Shown piece by piece: positions 7,647 to 52,909 of a stretch of DNA of 64,000 nucleotides. Position numbers and translations under genes: made by a program. The DNA comes from Halomonas halodenitrificans DSM 735. GTDB lineage: Bacteria > Pseudomonadota > Gammaproteobacteria > Pseudomonadales > Halomonadaceae. The notes under the pieces are model-generated. The model did not search any database. It had not been told where the DNA came from and was given only the letters and a program-made list of their open reading frames with translations. The stretch is from assembly GCF_000620045.1 (NCBI RefSeq), contig NZ_JHVH01000001.1:62001-126000 (forward strand), given 5' to 3'. Each line of letters starts with the position of its first letter. Position 1 is the stretch's first letter.

Positions 7647-8294
7647 ATGTCCGATACCCCACTGCCCGAACCCCTGCTGGACGATGACCAGCTCGACCGT
7701 CTCGACGATTTCCTGGCCTCGGAACGGGTTTCCGAGGACGCCCTCGACCTGATCGGCACCCACGGCTTTCTGGTGGCCCTGGCCGTCAGCCCCCGGGAAG
7801 TGACGCCGGCGGCCTGGGTGGCGGAGCTGTTTCAGGGGGAGCCGTCTTTCGCCGACGATGCCGAGCGCGAGACCATTCTCGGTTTGCTGGAGCGGCTACG
7901 CCACAATGCCATCGCCGCCATGGAACAGGGCCTGCTGCCGGAGCTGCCCTTCGAGCTGACCCTGGAGGGCATTGCGGCGGAAGAAACGCCCGTCGGAGAC
8001 TGGTGCGCCGGCTTCATGGAAGGGGTGTTTCTCGACGAGCCGGGCTGGTTCGAGGAAGACGAGGAAGCCGCCGCCACCCTGCTGCTGCCCTTCATGGCAC
8101 TCTCGGGCCTGTTCGATGACGAGCCGGACATGACCGAGTTCACGGCCGACACGGCTCGCCTCGAAGGCCTGGTCCGCCAGCTGCCCGAACTGGTACTGGA
8201 TCTCTACCTGCATTATCGCGTCCCCCCGGAGACACCCAAGCCGATGCCACGCAAGAAGAAACCCGCCGGCCGCAAGAAAGGCGGCAAGCGGTAG
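7647..8294 (+). CDS. UPF0149 (YecA/YgfB) family protein
   Basis: Acidic 215-residue protein of the UPF0149 family, whose molecular function is mostly uncharacterised. The N-terminal half carries the family pattern GTHGFLVALAVSP and the middle shows WCAGFMEGVF followed by an LLPFMALSGL helix. The C-terminus is strikingly basic (KKKPAGRKKGGKR), unlike the acidic body; some UPF0149 proteins carry a SEC-C zinc motif there, and this one has none. The start is the ATG at 7647, because the upstream in-frame ATG at 7623 has a poorer context. GGGGACAGTCCCC repeats follow its stop codon. Confidence 0.8.
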   Translation: MSDTPLPEPLLDDDQLDRLDDFLASERVSEDALDLIGTHGFLVALAVSPREVTPAAWVAELFQGEPSFADDAERETILGLLERLRHNAIAAMEQGLLPELPFELTLEGIAAEETPVGDWCAGFMEGVFLDEPGWFEEDEEAAATLLLPFMALSGLFDDEPDMTEFTADTARLEGLVRQLPELVLDLYLHYRVPPETPKPMPRKKKPAGRKKGGKR

Positions 8295-31069: not shown

Positions 31070-31145
31070 TGGTGGGTCGTGTAGGATTCGAACCTACGAC
31101 CAATTGGTTAAAAGCCAACTGCTCTACCAACTGAGCTAACGACCC
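31070..31145 (-). tRNA. tRNA-Lys (anticodon UUU), distal copy
   Basis: 76 bases with 5' GGGTCGT pairing with the 3' ACGACCC, D-loop AGCTCAGTTGGTAGAGC, anticodon loop CTTTTAA, T arm GGTTCGAATCC and an encoded CCA end. It is identical to the copy 28 bases upstream and ends at the terminator at 31032-31062. Confidence 0.98.
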
Positions 31146-31173
31146 AAGCTTGCAGGCAAGCCGGCGTCCGGAA

Positions 31174-31249
31174 TGGTGGGTCGTGTAGGATTCGAACCTA
31201 CGACCAATTGGTTAAAAGCCAACTGCTCTACCAACTGAGCTAACGACCC
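31174..31249 (-). tRNA. tRNA-Lys (anticodon UUU), proximal copy
   Basis: Same 76-base sequence as the distal copy including encoded CCA, anticodon UUU. It is first in the two-tRNA transcript, 16 bases after the -10 element of the promoter at 31266-31294. Confidence 0.98.
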
Positions 31250-47179: not shown

Positions 47180-48595
47180 TCAGCGCTCGGGCTTGAAGGG
47201 GCCGGGCTCCAGGTCGTGTCGCGCCAGCAGCTTGTAGAAATCGGTGCGATTGCGCCCGGCGATACGCGCCGCCTGGGTCACGTTACCCGCGGTAAGCTTG
47301 AGCACCTTGATCAGATAACGGCGCTCGAAAGCCGCCCGGGCACCATTGAACGTCGGCAGGGCACGCTCCTCGGCCGCCAGCGCCTGGGCCACCAGCGCCT
47401 CGGGTATGATGGCGGTCCCGGTCAGCGCCACGCACTGCTCCACCACGTTGAGCAGCTGGCGGACATTACCCGGCCAGGCGCTCGCGGCAAGCAGCTTCAA
47501 CGCCTCCGGCGAGAACCCCTTGACGAAGGGCTTGTGGCGCTCGGCCGCCTGGGCCACCAGATGCTTGGCCAACAGTGGTATATCCTCGGCGCGCTCCTTG
47601 AGCGGCGGAAGGCGCAGATTGACGACATTGAGTCGATAGTAGAGGTCTTCACGAAACTCGCCCTCGGCCATGGCGCGATCGAGATCACGATGCGTTGCCG
47701 AGATGACCCGCACGTCCACGGGTATCTGGGTGGTAGACCCCAGCGGACGGACCTGGCGCTCCTGAAGGACACGCAACAGCTTGACCTGAAGCGCCAGCGG
47801 CATGTCACCGATCTCATCGAGAAACAGGGTTCCGCCATCGGCGGCCTGGAACAGGCCGCGGTGCTCGCTGACCGCACCGGTAAAGGCCCCCCTGGCATGC
47901 CCGAACAGCTCGCTCTCCAGCAGCTGTTCGGGCAGTGCGCCACAGTTGATCGCGACGAAGGGCTTGTCGGCTCGCCGACTGGCACGGTGAATCGCCTTGG
48001 CCATCAGCTCCTTGCCGGAACCGGAGGGGCCAGTGACCAGCACGCTGACGTCGGAAGCCGCCACCATGCGCGCCTGTTCCAGCAACCGCTCCATCTCGGG
48101 ACTGTGGGTAATGATCTCGGCACGCCACGCCTCGTCGCCTTCGGGTACCACGCCCGGGGCCTGGGCCAGGGCCTCCTCGATAGCGGTGAAAAGCTCGTCG
48201 CGATCCACCGGTTTGGTCAGGAAGCTGAACACGCCCTCTCGCGTGGCGGTGACCGCATCGGGAATCGAACCATGAGCGGTCAGCAGAATCACCGGTAGCC
48301 CCGGTGCCTCGCGCTGCACCTCACGGAACAGCATCAGGCCGTCCATCTCGTCCATGCGCAGGTCGGTAAGCACCAGGTCGGGACGCTCGATTTCCAGCGC
48401 CTTGAGCGCCTCACGGCCGCTTTCGGCGGTCGTCAGCCGGTAGCCACGACTCTCCAGGCGCATGCCCAACAGCTTGAGCAGACTGACGTCGTCATCCACC
48501 AGCAGGATATGCGCCGGTTGCCGACGCCTGGCACTCCCGGCATCCGCCACCCGGGTCGAGTCGGCACGAGATTGCAGGGGGGGCAGTATTCTCAC
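47180..48595 (-). CDS. glrR: Sigma-54-dependent response regulator GlrR (QseF)
   Basis: NtrC-type activator, 471 residues. A receiver domain (about 28-145) has phospho-acceptor D78 in [12 protein letters not shown]; the AAA+ domain has Walker [16 protein letters not shown], the sigma-54-contacting GAFTGA loop and Walker [14 protein letters not shown]; the C-terminal Fis-type helix-turn-helix has [21 protein letters not shown]. The start is GTG at 48595 with GGAGG upstream. It closes the glrK-qseG-glrR operon. E. coli GlrR binds TGTC-N10-GACA sites upstream of sigma-54 promoters, a pattern found at 51474-51491. Confidence 0.93.
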
Positions 48596-48608: not shown

Positions 48609-49178
48609 TCACTCTTCGATCTGCTTGCGCATGTTGATACTTTGCTCGATAGCCGTCAGCGCCTCGAGTTTCTTCTGAAGGTCGGCATTCTCTTCCTCCA
48701 GTGCGGCACGACTGGCCTCGCTATCGGCCCGGGACGACTGGGCGGCACTCAGCCGCCCGACCATGGCGCGTCGACGCTCCAGCTCATTGAGCCAGTAGCG
48801 TAGCAGCGGCTGCAGGGACCGTGGCGCGGCACTCAGATCGGCCTTGAAGAGTTCCGAGGCCTGCTTCCACTGCCGCTGGTTGCCCCAGGAGAGCGCCACG
48901 GCACGAGCCAGGCGTCGCTCGGCGGCTTCTCCCTCCAGGCGCTCGAGCATGGTGTTGCGCCAGGCACGGTCACCACGCTGTGACGCCAGCCCGAAATCGA
49001 CCCAGTTACTCAGCAGGCACCCCTCGTCGACAAAGCTCGGCCGTTCGGCGTAACAATCGTTGGAGGGTGTCACGGCACTGTTTCGCTCGGAAGGCGACTC
49101 GAAGGAGGGCCGGGGGAGCATCTCGCAGCCGGCAAGCCAGATGGCCAGCAGACAGACCACCAGGGGACGAAGGGTCAT
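48609..49178 (-). CDS. qseG: QseG-like outer membrane lipoprotein
   Basis: Predicted lipoprotein of 189 residues with signal peptide TLRPLVVCLLAIWLAGC (lipobox LAGC). The mature part has a helical TPR-like region and a long C-terminal coiled coil (LERRRAMVGRLSAAQ to about 175). In E. coli QseG occupies the same place and controls GlrK activity from the outer membrane. Two more cysteines (NDCYAE, EGCLLS) may form a disulfide. The start at 49178 gives a proper signal peptide; an upstream ATG at 49196 would overlap glrK by 14 bases. Sequence is poorly conserved, so the name relies on synteny. Confidence 0.75.
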   Translation of the reverse strand: MTLRPLVVCLLAIWLAGCEMLPRPSFESPSERNSAVTPSNDCYAERPSFVDEGCLLSNWVDFGLASQRGDRAWRNTMLERLEGEAAERRLARAVALSWGNQRQWKQASELFKADLSAAPRSLQPLLRYWLNELERRRAMVGRLSAAQSSRADSEASRAALEEENADLQKKLEALTAIEQSINMRKQIEE

Positions 49179-49182
49179 CGCA

Positions 49183-50727
49183 TCAGTTCCTTTCATCTTG
49201 GCCTGCCATCTCGTCAGGCATAGGGTTTGTAGAGGCTCGGGGTGACGTGCCCTGGGGCAGGGTAAGGCGGAAGCAGACCGCCAGGCGCGAATCCTCCACC
49301 AGGGACAACTCCCCCCCTTGCAGACGCGCGCTGTCTGCCGCCACCGAGAGACCGATGCCCGAGCCCTTTAATGGCCCCTGGCGGCGCATGCTGCCCTGAT
49401 AGAAGGCCTCGAACAGCCGCGGACGGTCCACTTCGGCGATAGGATCGCCGCTGTTGGCCACCTCCAGTTCCAGGCGGTCGCGGCGCCGGCTGGCACGAAC
49501 CTCCAGTACACCGCCATCCGCCCCGTAGGCGATGGCATTGGAGACCAGATTATCCAGGATATGACCGGTGGCGGTGCTATCCAGCGACCACTCCACCGGG
49601 CCGTCGAAGACGTCTACCCGCATTCCCTTGTTGGCTAGTGCCAGGCGGTGCTTGGCCAGGACTTCGCGCACCAGGGTAGCCACATCGAGCCGCTCGATTT
49701 CTACACGCCGGTTATGCTGCAGCAGGTTGTAGTCGAGCAGCTGCTCGATCAGCCGTTGAAGCTCGCGGCCGCTGCCATCGATCAACTCGAGGATCTCCAG
49801 TTGCTGGGTGGCCAGCTCCCCCGCCACGCCATCGGCAAGCAGCGCAGCCCCCTCGCGCACGCTGGCCAGCGGCGTCTTGAGCTCATGGGACATATGGCGT
49901 AGAAACCGCTGTTTCTCGGCCTCGAGCTCATCCAGACGCGAGGCCAGCCAGTCGAGGCGTTCATCCAGCTCGATCAGTTCCGCCGGCCCCTGTACCGGCC
50001 GCGGCGACTCGTCCCGGGTTCCACTGCCGATCCTCAGGATACGCCGCTCCAGGTGTCGCACCGGCCGGATGATCAGCCAGGAGAAAAGCAGCATCAAGAC
50101 CAGGCTGGCCGAGACCAGGGCGCCGGTCTGCCACCATAGCTGACTCTGAACCATGCGGGCCCGTTCGCGGATCACATCGATACGAGCATCGATCCGCTGG
50201 TTGGTCGCCTGACGCAGCGCTTCAGTACGCTCGGCGAACGCCGGAAAGGCATCGAGTCGCGACTCCAGGGCCTCGGCCGTCAGTTCAGGCAGTTCGCCGA
50301 GGCTCTCGAGCTGCTCCTCCAGGGCCGCCACGACCGGGTCTTCCGGCAATAGCCGTCGCTGCAGCGCCAGCAGTTGACGATACTCCTCGAGGCGCTCGGC
50401 GTAGATTTCCAGCAGGCTATCCTGTTCCAGCACGGCATACTGACGAGCGCTACGTTCCATCTCAAGCGCCAATGCACCCAGGGTCCGGGCGCGGCGCGTC
50501 TCCTCCACCGCCTGGCGAGCGCTGATGTCGGCCAGGCGTGTCAGCTCGGTAACCGCCTGAGCCGCCTGAAACATCAGCACGCCCAACGGCAGCATCACCA
50601 CCACGAAGGCGATCAGCACGAGTTGCAGCAGGGAACGGGGGCGCCAACGTCGCGCGACTCGGGAGGTCATATCCAGCGTTCTTTGCAGGAAGCCAAAAGG
50701 CGAGGTGGTGGATGGGTTTGCCATCAT
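49183..50727 (-). CDS. glrK: Sensor histidine kinase GlrK (QseE)
   Basis: Membrane sensor kinase, 514 residues, partner of GlrR. Two transmembrane segments (about 32-53 and 202-221) flank a helical periplasmic domain; a HAMP-like linker follows, then HisKA with H281 in RHMSHELKTPLASV, an ATPase domain with LDNLVSNAIAYGAD and GSGIGLSVAADSARL. The start is the ATG at 50727 with AAGG eight bases upstream; an in-frame ATG at 50670 lacks a Shine-Dalgarno. First gene of glrK-qseG-glrR, and directly downstream of the sigma-54 transcript described at 50868-51351. The signal is unknown. Confidence 0.92.
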   Translation of the reverse strand: MMANPSTTSPFGFLQRTLDMTSRVARRWRPRSLLQLVLIAFVVVMLPLGVLMFQAAQAVTELTRLADISARQAVEETRRARTLGALALEMERSARQYAVLEQDSLLEIYAERLEEYRQLLALQRRLLPEDPVVAALEEQLESLGELPELTAEALESRLDAFPAFAERTEALRQATNQRIDARIDVIRERARMVQSQLWWQTGALVSASLVLMLLFSWLIIRPVRHLERRILRIGSGTRDESPRPVQGPAELIELDERLDWLASRLDELEAEKQRFLRHMSHELKTPLASVREGAALLADGVAGELATQQLEILELIDGSGRELQRLIEQLLDYNLLQHNRRVEIERLDVATLVREVLAKHRLALANKGMRVDVFDGPVEWSLDSTATGHILDNLVSNAIAYGADGGVLEVRASRRRDRLELEVANSGDPIAEVDRPRLFEAFYQGSMRRQGPLKGSGIGLSVAADSARLQGGELSLVEDSRLAVCFRLTLPQGTSPRASTNPMPDEMAGQDERN

Positions 50728-50867
50728 GTTAGACCTTCAGGATACCAGAATTTGCCTGGGAGCCGTGCACCGGGCACGGAGCCGGCACCGGCATCATGCC
50801 CGGCGCGCCTTCGACTTGTCGGGCCTACGCGAAGCCCTGCTGACGTCATGCCAAATGACGATGAGTC

Positions 50868-50892
50868 AAAAAAAAGGCCGGCAAGGCCGGCC
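50868..50892 (-). terminator. Strong terminator just upstream of glrK
   Basis: Stem GGCCGGC / GCCGGCC (50876-50882 with 50886-50892), followed on the minus strand by eight T (50875-50868). It lies 140 bases before the glrK start, in the same direction, so it must end a transcript that begins in the argA-glrK gap. Confidence 0.88.
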
Positions 50893-50955
50893 CAAGTACG
50901 CAGGGAACTGAAGGGTCTGAAAGAATTGCCGGTGGCGGCCTGGTCCAACCACCGC

Positions 50956-51241
50956 TCAGCCTTCCAAACGGGCCGGGGAAGGCCCTCGAAGCCATGCATC
51001 GGCCATCTGCCACCAGGGGCTGGCCTCCTCATGCGGGCGGCGTGCCATCTCCCGGCTCACCGCCCCGCTTCGTGCTTGGCAATGTCGCCCGACCTGATAA
51101 AAAGAGCGTCAGGCCGCGGCGCCACTGCGCTGTTCGATCCCCCGCAAGGGGGAGAGGCATCCATGCCGGGGCATCCTTGCCCTTGGGGTACGCGTCCGTG
51201 AGCGTATCGGTACCCGTCTCATCGCAACCTAAATCACACAT
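50956..51241 (-). pseudogene. Possible RMF-like small protein gene, frameshifted at a T5 tract
   Basis: If one T of the TTTTT tract at 51103-51099 is removed, a continuous 94-residue frame runs from the ATG at 51241 to the TGA at 50956. Its C-terminal half (SREMARRPHEEASPWWQM then ADAWLRG) resembles the SKEMCPY...WLGGW region of ribosome modulation factor, and the first half repeats the theme as AYPKGKDA...DRTAQWRRG. As sequenced, the frames are split; shorter pieces are ORFs at 51057-51164 (AAGGA nine bases upstream) and 50956-51060 (GTG, overlapping by GTGA). Third-position GC is lower than in neighbouring genes. Coding status is uncertain. Confidence 0.35.
51099..51131 (-). terminator. Possible internal terminator/attenuator
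   Basis: Minus-strand AGCGCAG (51131-51125) can pair with CTGACGCT (51112-51105, one bulged A), enclosing a GC-rich loop, followed by CTTTTTA. It would end the sigma-54 transcript at about 250 nt. The same T tract interrupts the possible small-protein frame. Confidence 0.35.
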
Positions 51242-51361
51242 CGCTAGAAGCAGACGCTGATCGCCGAAGAGGCAGGGCACAGGGCAGTGTCGTTTCCACC
51301 TCCTGGGCGATCGAAACGGTTCGAGCCGTAGTGAACCATTTCCGTTGCTCACCAAGAATAT

Positions 51362-51377
51362 TGCGACCATCGTGCCA
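51362..51377 (-). promoter_or_regulatory. Sigma-54 (-24/-12) promoter
   Basis: Minus strand TGGCACG-ATGG-TCGCA, against consensus TGGCACG-N4-TTGCA: the -24 element is perfect, the -12 element has one mismatch and keeps GC, and the GG-to-GC spacing is the required 10 bases. An IHF-like site and GlrR-type boxes lie upstream. Confidence 0.8.
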
Positions 51378-51397
51378 GAAATAAAAAACCCATTTAT

Positions 51398-51410
51398 TTT
51401 CAATGAATTA
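51398..51410 (+). promoter_or_regulatory. IHF-like site
   Basis: TTTCAATGAATTA matches WATCAANNNNTTR except at the second base, inside an AT-rich stretch. It lies between the sigma-54 promoter and the GlrR box, where IHF usually bends DNA at such promoters. Confidence 0.5.
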
Positions 51411-51473
51411 AAATATAATACGGATTGTCTTACAGGAAGAAGGCGGGCAATGGCGGCGGCGAGACGGGCATTA

Positions 51474-51491
51474 TGTCATCGAAAAGCGACA
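51474..51491. promoter_or_regulatory. GlrR-type box (exact TGTC-N10-GACA)
   Basis: TGTC-ATCGAAAAGC-GACA, an exact match to the pattern reported for E. coli GlrR sites. Its centre is about 132 bases upstream of the predicted start at 51351, a normal distance for a sigma-54 activator. A half site TGTC lies at 51426-51429. Confidence 0.65.
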
Positions 51492-51539
51492 CATCAGGGG
51501 TGTGCCCTACAAAAATTCTTTATTTTCAAGGGAATAACG

Positions 51540-51557
51540 AGTCGCAAAAAAGCGACA
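51540..51557. promoter_or_regulatory. Second GlrR-type box (one mismatch)
   Basis: AGTC-GCAAAAAAGC-GACA, one base off TGTC-N10-GACA, centred 66 bases from the exact box. It overlaps the T run of the presumed argA terminator and may simply be part of it. Confidence 0.35.
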
Positions 51558-51578
51558 ACTGCGCTCCGGGTGGCGCAG
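51546..51578 (-). terminator. Probable terminator after argA
   Basis: Minus strand CTGCGC / GCGCAG stem (51578-51559) with an 8-base loop, then TTGTCGC and six T (51551-51546), just past the argA stop. The gap between stem and T run is long, so confidence is moderate. Confidence 0.5.
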
Positions 51579-51595
51579 CGCGGCGACACCCATGA

Positions 51596-52909
51596 TCAGC
51601 CCAGCGGCTTGAGCAACACCTTGGATTTGCGGGCATGATTATAGGTATCCCGACGCAGCGGGGGCAGCGCCTCGAAATCGGCCAGGCGGAAGCCGTGTTC
51701 GAAGAACCAGTGCGTGGTATGGGTGGTCAAGGCAAACAGCGAGGACACCCCCTCACGCCGGGCACGACGCTCGACCTCGGCCAGCAACAGCTCCCCCCGG
51801 GCACCGCCACGATAGTCGTCATGAACCGCCACGCAGGCCAACTCTCCCACCTCGGAATCGGCGAAGCGATGCAAGGCCGCGCAGCCGATCATCATGCCAT
51901 CACGCTCGATTACCACGTAATCGTCGATCTCGTGCTCCAGCCGCTCTCGCGAGCGGGGCACCAGCATGCCGCGCTCCTCGAGAGGCTCGAGAAGCTCGAG
52001 CAGGCCGCCAATATCCGCCAGCTCGGCCGGACGCAGCTGCTCGTAGCGATGCCGGGTGATCATGGTGCCAACGCCGTCACGAGTAAACAGTTCACCGAGC
52101 AAGGCATCATGGTCATGCCATGAGAGCAGGTGGGTACGCGCCACGCCGTGACGAGCCGCCTGACACGCCGCCTCCAGATGGCGAGCCGGCTCGCTGCCGG
52201 GAGCGGCCCGGGCCAACAGCGGCCCCGCCTCGGCGGGGGTCAGCTGACGCTGCAACTGACCGCTGGCATCGAACAGGCCGCTGGCCCCGCCAAGCAGAAT
52301 CAGCTTGTCGGCCGACAGCGCCATGGCGGCATGCTGGGCCACGTCAGAGGCATCGAGGTCGAACACCTCGCCGGTGCTGGAGAAGCCCAGCGGTGGCAGC
52401 ACCACCAGCGTCCCCTTTTCCAGCAGCCCCTCGATGGCCTGAGTACGCACCCGACGCACCTCGCCGCTATGGTCGAAGTCGACACCCTCGCGCACACCCA
52501 GCGGCTTGGCCATCACCAGATTGCCCGACACGGCGGTGAGTTCGACGCCATGCATGGGGGTATTGGGCAATCCCAGCGAGAAGCGTGCCTCCAGCCACAA
52601 CAGCTGCTCGGCGGCCACCCGCTCGATACACGCCATGACGGTATCGTCGGCGATCCCTCGCCCCTGATGCTGCCCCGGGGAGATCCCCGACGCCTTCAGT
52701 ACCTGACACACCTGGGGGCGAATGCCGAACACCACCACCAGCCGCACTCCCAGGGTGTGGAGTAGCGCCAGATCCTGGACCAGTTGCTCGCCACGCCCCC
52801 GCGCCATCGCCTCGCCCTCGATCAGGATGACGAAGGTGCGTCCTCGATGAGCGTTGATATAAGGCGAAGAGTTGCGAAACCAGTCGACGAAGGGGAAACG
52901 TGTATCCAA
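51596..52909 (-). CDS. argA: N-acetylglutamate synthase
   Basis: Classical ArgA, 437 residues: an amino-acid-kinase-like N-terminal domain (about 1-285, VVVFGIRPQVCQVL, GASGLFD) and a C-terminal GNAT domain (VGELACVAVHDDYRGGARGELLL). It makes N-acetylglutamate, the first step of arginine synthesis. The start is TTG at 52909, with GGAG eight bases upstream and the usual family N-terminus FVDWFRNSSPYINAHRG; no ATG is available upstream. It lies downstream of pitA but is separated by a hairpin. Confidence 0.95.
   Translation of the reverse strand: MDTRFPFVDWFRNSSPYINAHRGRTFVILIEGEAMARGRGEQLVQDLALLHTLGVRLVVVFGIRPQVCQVLKASGISPGQHQGRGIADDTVMACIERVAAEQLLWLEARFSLGLPNTPMHGVELTAVSGNLVMAKPLGVREGVDFDHSGEVRRVRTQAIEGLLEKGTLVVLPPLGFSSTGEVFDLDASDVAQHAAMALSADKLILLGGASGLFDASGQLQRQLTPAEAGPLLARAAPGSEPARHLEAACQAARHGVARTHLLSWHDHDALLGELFTRDGVGTMITRHRYEQLRPAELADIGGLLELLEPLEERGMLVPRSRERLEHEIDDYVVIERDGMMIGCAALHRFADSEVGELACVAVHDDYRGGARGELLLAEVERRARREGVSSLFALTTHTTHWFFEHGFRLADFEALPPLRRDTYNHARKSKVLLKPLG

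Follow-up and report, generated by a model that had tools for sequence, protein, structure and literature searches.

The window analysed here, a stretch of 64,000 nucleotides corresponding to positions 62001-126000 of contig 1 in a 3.46-Mb Halomonas genome, carries argA on its minus strand, followed by the genes of a GlrK-QseG-GlrR system (Table 1); the product of the qseG-like gene has no NCBIfam or Pfam match. The argA-glrK gap of 868 bases, which we compared with 57 related genomes and with its own genome, holds a putative sigma-54 control region and, downstream of it, a predicted RNA gene. Matching sequence was found in 35 of the 36 same-genus relatives. The exception is the 2.9-Mb genome G001 (locus L129), in which argA and glrK nearly abut, the RNA gene is absent and GlrKR is kept. 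The sole blastn match outside the genus (G040) proved to be an AT-rich stretch without the RNA and was set aside as spurious. Within the family, genus g23 (loci L126-L128) has the gene with its boxes, 3' motif and terminator and with a diverged core, the promoter of L126 starting with CGGCA, and in the four genomes of genus g24 neither a GlrR at E <= 1e-150 nor a match to the core model was found. The counts given below draw mainly on 45 loci from same-genus relatives, named records and three other genera of the family; owing to seven other named loci, a species may be represented more than once. Excluded from this set were L018, L022 and L024 (apparent repeats of G027, G003 and G031), L028 (29% identity), the truncated L061 and the unrelated L065. 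L057, with a shorter 3' part, is absent from the full-length alignment, and L021, which has no upstream sequence, from the count of box offsets.

Table 1. Features of the argA-glrK region; coordinates are positions in the window
Feature	Position	Strand	Remarks
argA, upstream neighbour of the RNA gene	51596..52909	minus	
Distal GlrR-type box, TGTCGCCGCGCTGCGCCA	51571..51588	minus	1 mismatch; offset 211 from the -24 element, just past the argA stop
Middle GlrR-type box, TGTCGCTTTTTTGCGACT	51540..51557	minus	1 mismatch; offset 180 from the -24 element
Proximal GlrR-type box, TGTCGCTTTTCGATGACA	51474..51491	minus	exact; offset 114 from the -24 element
IHF-like site, TAATTCATTGAAA	51398..51410	minus	1 mismatch to YAAN4TTGATW; offset 33
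Sigma-54 promoter TGGCACG-ATGG-TCGCA (-24/-12), TGGCACGATGGTCGCA	51362..51377	minus	assigned from sequence and conservation
Predicted non-coding RNA, about 484 nt	50868..51351	minus	ends placed by the -12 element (5') and the terminator (3')
Conserved core	51132..51263	minus	basis of covariance model R1
CANGGA motif 1 (CACGGA)	51195..51200	minus	loop or single-stranded part
CANGGA motif 2, hairpin GGGC-AAGGAU-GCCC	51174..51179	minus	ANGGAN hexaloop
CANGGA motif 3, hairpin GGC-AUGGAU-GCC	51160..51165	minus	ANGGAN hexaloop
3' single-stranded motif, CUUCAGUUCCCUGCGUACUU	50894..50913	minus	common to the second RNA; up to CUUCAGUUCCCUGCGUA also to L126-L128
Intrinsic terminator, GGGCCGGCCTTGCCGGCC + T8	50868..50893	minus	GC-rich; before glrK
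glrK, sensor kinase, downstream of the RNA gene	49183..50727	minus	named by position and GlrR neighbour; HisKA and HATPase_c domains
qseG-like gene	48609..49196	minus	named by position
glrR, sigma-54-dependent response regulator	47180..48595	minus	NF011695, 798 bits against a cut-off of 763

Two further elements lie between the RNA terminator and glrK. A dispersed repeat occupies 50767-50838, with other blastn copies at G000:C8:64658-64715 in the same genome, at four places in G027 and at one in G002. Directly upstream of the glrK start, a conserved stretch that looks sigma-70-like by eye (TTCTGGTATCCT, 50739-50750, minus strand) suggests that glrK has a promoter of its own.

An earlier note on this DNA had described the -24/-12 element, the IHF-like site, and an exact and a one-mismatch TGTC-N10-GACA box; all four are present, and a third, distal box had been missed. 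It had also proposed that relatives should keep both the promoter element and the boxes, and they do. The pattern TGGCAYG-N4-TNGCW was found 140-161 nt upstream of the RNA core in all 45 loci, the best-scoring site being taken in a 90-nt stretch per locus and fitting the consensus every time; a first, looser regular expression had missed the promoter in more than half of the loci. At up to two mismatches, the proximal, middle and distal boxes were detected in 42, 40 and 27 of 44 loci, compared with means of 1.3-1.5 and maxima of 5-6 in 200 base shuffles, a test that is not independent because the offsets were chosen on the same data. When each locus was put in the better-fitting of two sets of offsets, 15 loci had boxes at about 115/180/211 and 29 at 126/191/222 upstream of the -24 element, the two sets thus lying 11 bp, or roughly one helical turn of DNA, apart. 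The box arms are frequently extended to TGTCGCC-N4-GGCGACA in the aligned loci, and the IHF-like site is present at up to one mismatch in 38 of the 45, all except one of these at 33-34 nt before the -24 element.

Single elements are common in the genome. Exact matches to TGGCACGNNNNTYGCW number only three in 3.46 Mb; tolerating one mismatch raises this to 84, where the reversed control gives 52, and the -24/-12 element alone is therefore weak evidence. Likewise, exact TGTC-N10-GACA occurs at 28 places in this genome and the reversed control at 19. Conservation is what we take to be the strong evidence for boxes and promoter, either element alone meaning little. A sigma-54 score of at least 15.5 at 60-300 nt downstream was reached for just two of these exact boxes, namely the window's own and L162, which lies within a coding stretch; the survey covered exact boxes, so that mismatched ones may mark other GlrR targets. 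We rejected a nearly identical box at G000:C6:54188, which sits between ruvC and ruvA (genes assigned by eye) and has no sigma-54 site, and also L161, where a perfect palindrome precedes a lipoprotein-like gene and no sigma-54 site scores at least 15.5 at 60-300 nt downstream. Beside the ruvC/ruvA box runs a series of short repeats containing GTGGCGGC (L005, about 7980-8140, minus strand).

This layout resembles that of enterobacterial glmY, for which a QseF/GlrR site and the promoter are described in the accessible parts of PMC6075780 and PMC8745638. There, as here, the small RNA gene lies just upstream of glrK-qseG-glrR and has a sigma-54 promoter, an IHF site and three TGTC-N10-GACA boxes. 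Run on E. coli K-12 glmY, the same script returned exact boxes at offsets 107/170/203 and an IHF-like site at 31 (one mismatch), compared with 114/180/211 and 33 in the window, so that the box spacings are 63 and 33 bp in E. coli and 66 and 31 in Halomonas. These offsets support the likeness to glmY that the earlier note had pointed out, and its suggestion that GlrKR controls its own local transcript gains from the conserved spacing of promoter, IHF-like site and boxes in Halomonadaceae, from the E. coli layout and from the GlrR score. The two regions differ in the orientation of the IHF-like site, which is opposite, in the upstream gene (argA in Halomonas, purL at enterobacterial glmY) and above all in the product, since the Halomonas RNA would be about 480 nt long compared with 184 nt for E. 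coli GlmY and is unrelated to it in sequence. What lies here is a glmY-type control region in front of an RNA other than GlmY, the transcription of which would depend on GlrR, sigma-54 and IHF.

Between 51351 and 50868, the comparison of loci points to a non-coding RNA of about 480 nt that is conserved and structured and is presumably transcribed from this promoter. The predicted fold of the window RNA has a z-score of -3.27, none of 100 shuffles being equally stable, and across the 44 aligned loci RNAalifold gave -238.3 kcal/mol, compared with -155.0 +/- 5.1 in 25 alignments with shuffled columns. Changes on both sides affect 60 of the 130 consensus pairs, compared with 31-42 when partners were slid and a mean of 40.7 (maximum 48) when they were permuted; 90.7% of cells are able to pair, against 35-43% and 84.9%, respectively. 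Pairing reaches 99.7% of cells in the core, where six pairs change on both sides, compared with 0.8 in shuffles. A search of 293 genomes of the order with the core model R1 recovered five true loci; these belong to the 12 family genomes in the set, of which the other seven, without a match, are those of g23 and g24. Three matches outside the family (E about 1e-4) were discarded by eye, L123 and L125 as coding and L124 as group II intron-like. No Rfam family matches the RNA at its gathering score, and at E <= 10 there are only scattered matches far below family cut-offs. Taken together, we hold it to be very nearly certain that an RNA gene of the GlrR/sigma-54 type is real.

The most constant feature of this RNA is a set of three CANGGA motifs, in which GGA and the C at -3 are present in all 45 loci and the N base varies; A at -2 is kept in 45, 45 and 44 loci for motifs 1, 2 and 3. 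Motifs 2 and 3 form the hairpins GGGC-ANGGAN-GCCC and GGC-ANGGAN-GCC across loci, two of the four pairs of the motif 2 stem changing on both sides and the motif 3 stem being invariant, so that two A-N-GGA motifs are predicted in hexaloops beside a third CANGGA. Mean unpaired probability in single-sequence folds is 0.61 for motif 1, 0.77 for motif 3 and 0.94 for motif 2, motifs 1 and 3 not being open in every fold. The CsrA SELEX consensus RUACARGGAUGU, six-base loops, and ANGGAN as the site in RsmE complexes are reported in the accessible text of PMC7652899, and motifs 2 and 3 come close to that consensus. CsrA is encoded in all ten genomes tested, the window's own included, and CsrA of Halomonas hydrothermalis is listed as 86% identical to E. 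coli CsrA in a table of a preprint available in part (PMC12889724). From these sequence features, we lean, by a small measure, towards an RNA that acts through CsrA.

Some members of the RNA family do without GGA hairpins, however. A GGA hairpin loop is lacking from the predicted folds of all three of L126-L128, of which only L127 and L128 keep GGCAUGGAUGCC, by eye, and from those of four of seven second RNAs (L066, L069, L070 and L071; see below). The small number of sites, the incomplete opening of motifs 1 and 3 and these missing loops argue against a simple sponge. CsrB takes up to 9 copies of CsrA, and McaS carries four GGA motifs, two of them CsrA sites, and binds CsrA while also regulating mRNAs (accessible parts of PMC10729762). 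Two or three sites are far too few for a CsrB-like load of CsrA. The Halomonas RNA shares ANGGAN hexaloops and invariant GGA with variable neighbours with CsrB/C and McaS, and resembles McaS in its low site number combined with another functional part; it differs from the CsrA/RsmA-binding RNAs, RsmX/Y/Z included, in having two to three sites rather than many, a larger structured body and predicted GlrR/sigma-54 control in place of GacA/UvrY-type control. Vibrio Qrr and Pseudomonas CrcZ are sigma-54-driven small RNAs and share control by an activator together with sigma-54 with what is predicted for the Halomonas RNA, whereas activator and layout differ and the Halomonas RNA has no Rfam match at gathering score.

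A second copy of the 3' motif with its terminator was found at E <= 0.001 in seven of the 36 same-genus relatives (L066-L072). Each of these loci has a sigma-54-like site, and five have a GlrR-type box with up to one mismatch at offsets of 116 or 179-181, none being detected at that threshold in L069 and L072. The second RNAs have predicted lengths of 128-236 nt and the same 3' end as the glrK-side RNA. In all seven, a GGDEF gene on the same strand starts 105-163 nt past the motif (six identified by Pfam, L066 by eye from the translated frame). The genes on the other side differ, with a HIT-domain gene in five of the seven and otherwise a DPBB_1 lytic transglycosylase and RibD_C, which suggests that the RNA and the GGDEF gene stay together. 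When R1 was run with filters off on 13 loci, four of the six best matches fell, weakly, at the RNA positions of L072 (E 0.0027), L128, L066 and L127. The motif itself has a single copy in the window's genome at up to three mismatches, and its pattern was found in eight of the 293 genomes, five of the family and three of another family; the latter matches lie within coding sequence and were rejected. CsrA does not explain why the motif is present in all the RNAs.

Could the RNA nevertheless be a highly diverged relative of GlmY/GlmZ, acting via RapZ on glmS? Its place beside glrK, the similar promoter layout, the presence of rapZ (in 37 of 38 genomes, including those of other families) and, in some species, a further RNA locus under GlrR-type control would all fit such an origin. 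The GlmY/GlmZ families of Rfam, however, give no match at E <= 10, and neither nhmmer nor R1 with filters off found a match between the RNA family and glmY of E. coli, whose product contains one GGA. Furthermore, the frame upstream of glmS (glmU by eye) ends 9-25 nt before it in 20 of 20 loci (12 nt in the window's genome), and a GlmZ-type glmS leader is therefore absent in Halomonas. The window's RapZ ends in GTQDTLPAPDDIPHQGR and so differs from E. coli RapZ, which we take to have the basic C-terminal end KRK, in lacking the basic end linked to GlmY/Z. The accessible text of PMC7073468 ties the RNA-binding C-terminal domain of RapZ to Enterobacteriaceae with GlmY/GlmZ. We have rejected membership in GlmY/GlmZ on the absence of Rfam and nhmmer matches and of a glmS leader and on the different RapZ end, and consider even a distant relationship very improbable; the earlier note was right to see no evidence for a GlmY homologue, and its caution is strengthened by these results. 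Still closer to negligible is the chance of a small protein gene in the conserved stretch: some loci have a conserved ATG with which MCDLGCDETG starts, but the frame from this best conserved ATG stops within 8 codons in 22 of the 45, the rest diverge after about 11, and the window's frame has no Pfam match.

A base-pairing small RNA of the Hfq type, with the GGA hairpins serving structure only, is a stronger contender, which we nevertheless judge unlikely. Its seed would be the 3' motif, CUUYAGUUCCCUGCGUAC, which resembles an anti-Shine-Dalgarno sequence, is the one clear part common to the glrK-side RNA, the second RNA and L126-L128, and is unpaired in the predicted fold with the T8 terminator next to it. 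However, a search of 12 genomes for the complement of 17 nt at up to three mismatches gave 69 matches, of which 14 are the RNAs themselves, and the 55 others compare with 161 in the reversed control, so that no target signal was seen; the 13 sites checked that recur in two or three genomes all lie deep inside long open frames, at least 107 codons from the frame start. Pairing through this seed would also leave the invariant GGA with its variable N unexplained. Alternatively, the conserved stretch could be a long 5' leader with an attenuator, in which the GlrR promoter drives glrK or, at the second locus, the diguanylate cyclase gene, with read-through set by the 3' motif and terminator. The constant GGDEF gene past the motif in all seven second loci speaks for such an arrangement, as does the report, in the accessible part of PMC8745638, of glmY and qseEGF as one operon in Proteus mirabilis. 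Against it stand the strong terminator after the motif in the aligned loci and the sigma-70-like stretch seen by eye just upstream of glrK, and we regard a leader as distinctly improbable.

We therefore return to CsrA and, building on what the comparison of sequences supports (promoter layout, conservation and structure of the RNA, invariant GGA, presence of CsrA), propose the following model. Window positions 51588-50868 would make up a regulatory RNA gene, at which phosphorylated GlrR would bind the three boxes and IHF would bend the DNA between boxes and promoter; sigma-54 polymerase would start at about 51351 and transcribe a structured RNA of about 480 nt as far as the terminator in front of glrK. 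This RNA would offer CsrA/RsmA two or three conserved CANGGA sites, so that with GlrK-QseG-GlrR active the RNA would bind CsrA and alter which targets are repressed or stabilised by CsrA; the 3' motif, which is conserved and single-stranded, would be a second functional element, probably a pairing seed. Binding of CsrA, an effect on the cell and a link between an envelope sensor and the Csr network may follow from this arrangement.

The promoter is also seen with another kind of product. In G041, one genome of another family of the order, locus L130 (G041:C1:2787200-2793400, at about 2108-2465) has a sigma-54 promoter of the glmY type upstream of glrK, with two boxes of one mismatch each at 92/157 and an IHF-like site at 32, followed by a small protein gene rather than an RNA. 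The predicted product has 84 residues, an EF-hand pair (Pfam EF-hand_7, E 1.3e-8) and, by eye, a start resembling a signal peptide.

It seems reasonable to suggest, tentatively and with somewhat less than even confidence, that one ancestral sigma-54 output promoter was kept beside glrK while its product was swapped by lineage: GlmY in enterobacteria, a CsrA-binding RNA of about 480 nt in Halomonadaceae and, in another family, a small secreted protein with an EF-hand pair. The Halomonas output would link envelope sensing to the Csr network and, through the second copy of the promoter upstream of a diguanylate cyclase gene, to cyclic-di-GMP. Our search of the literature on GlrR in Halomonas, which lay mostly outside subscription journals, returned no prior report; with the same coverage, the titles and opening parts of abstracts on Halomonas small RNAs do not describe this RNA, and the accessible parts of PMC3162934 and PMC13414033 contain nothing on this RNA gene. 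A control region of the glmY type joined to an unrelated RNA suggests that promoters of regulatory RNAs can outlive their RNAs, and the locus makes it possible to study directly the role of GlrKR in the absence of GlmY. If CsrA binding is true, it would also represent a GlrR/sigma-54-controlled entry into the Csr network, made by a regulatory RNA without any Rfam model in a genus used in industry.

Elsewhere in the window, a tandem pair of tRNA-Lys(ttt) genes, both with the same Rfam score, lies at 31070-31249 on the minus strand.
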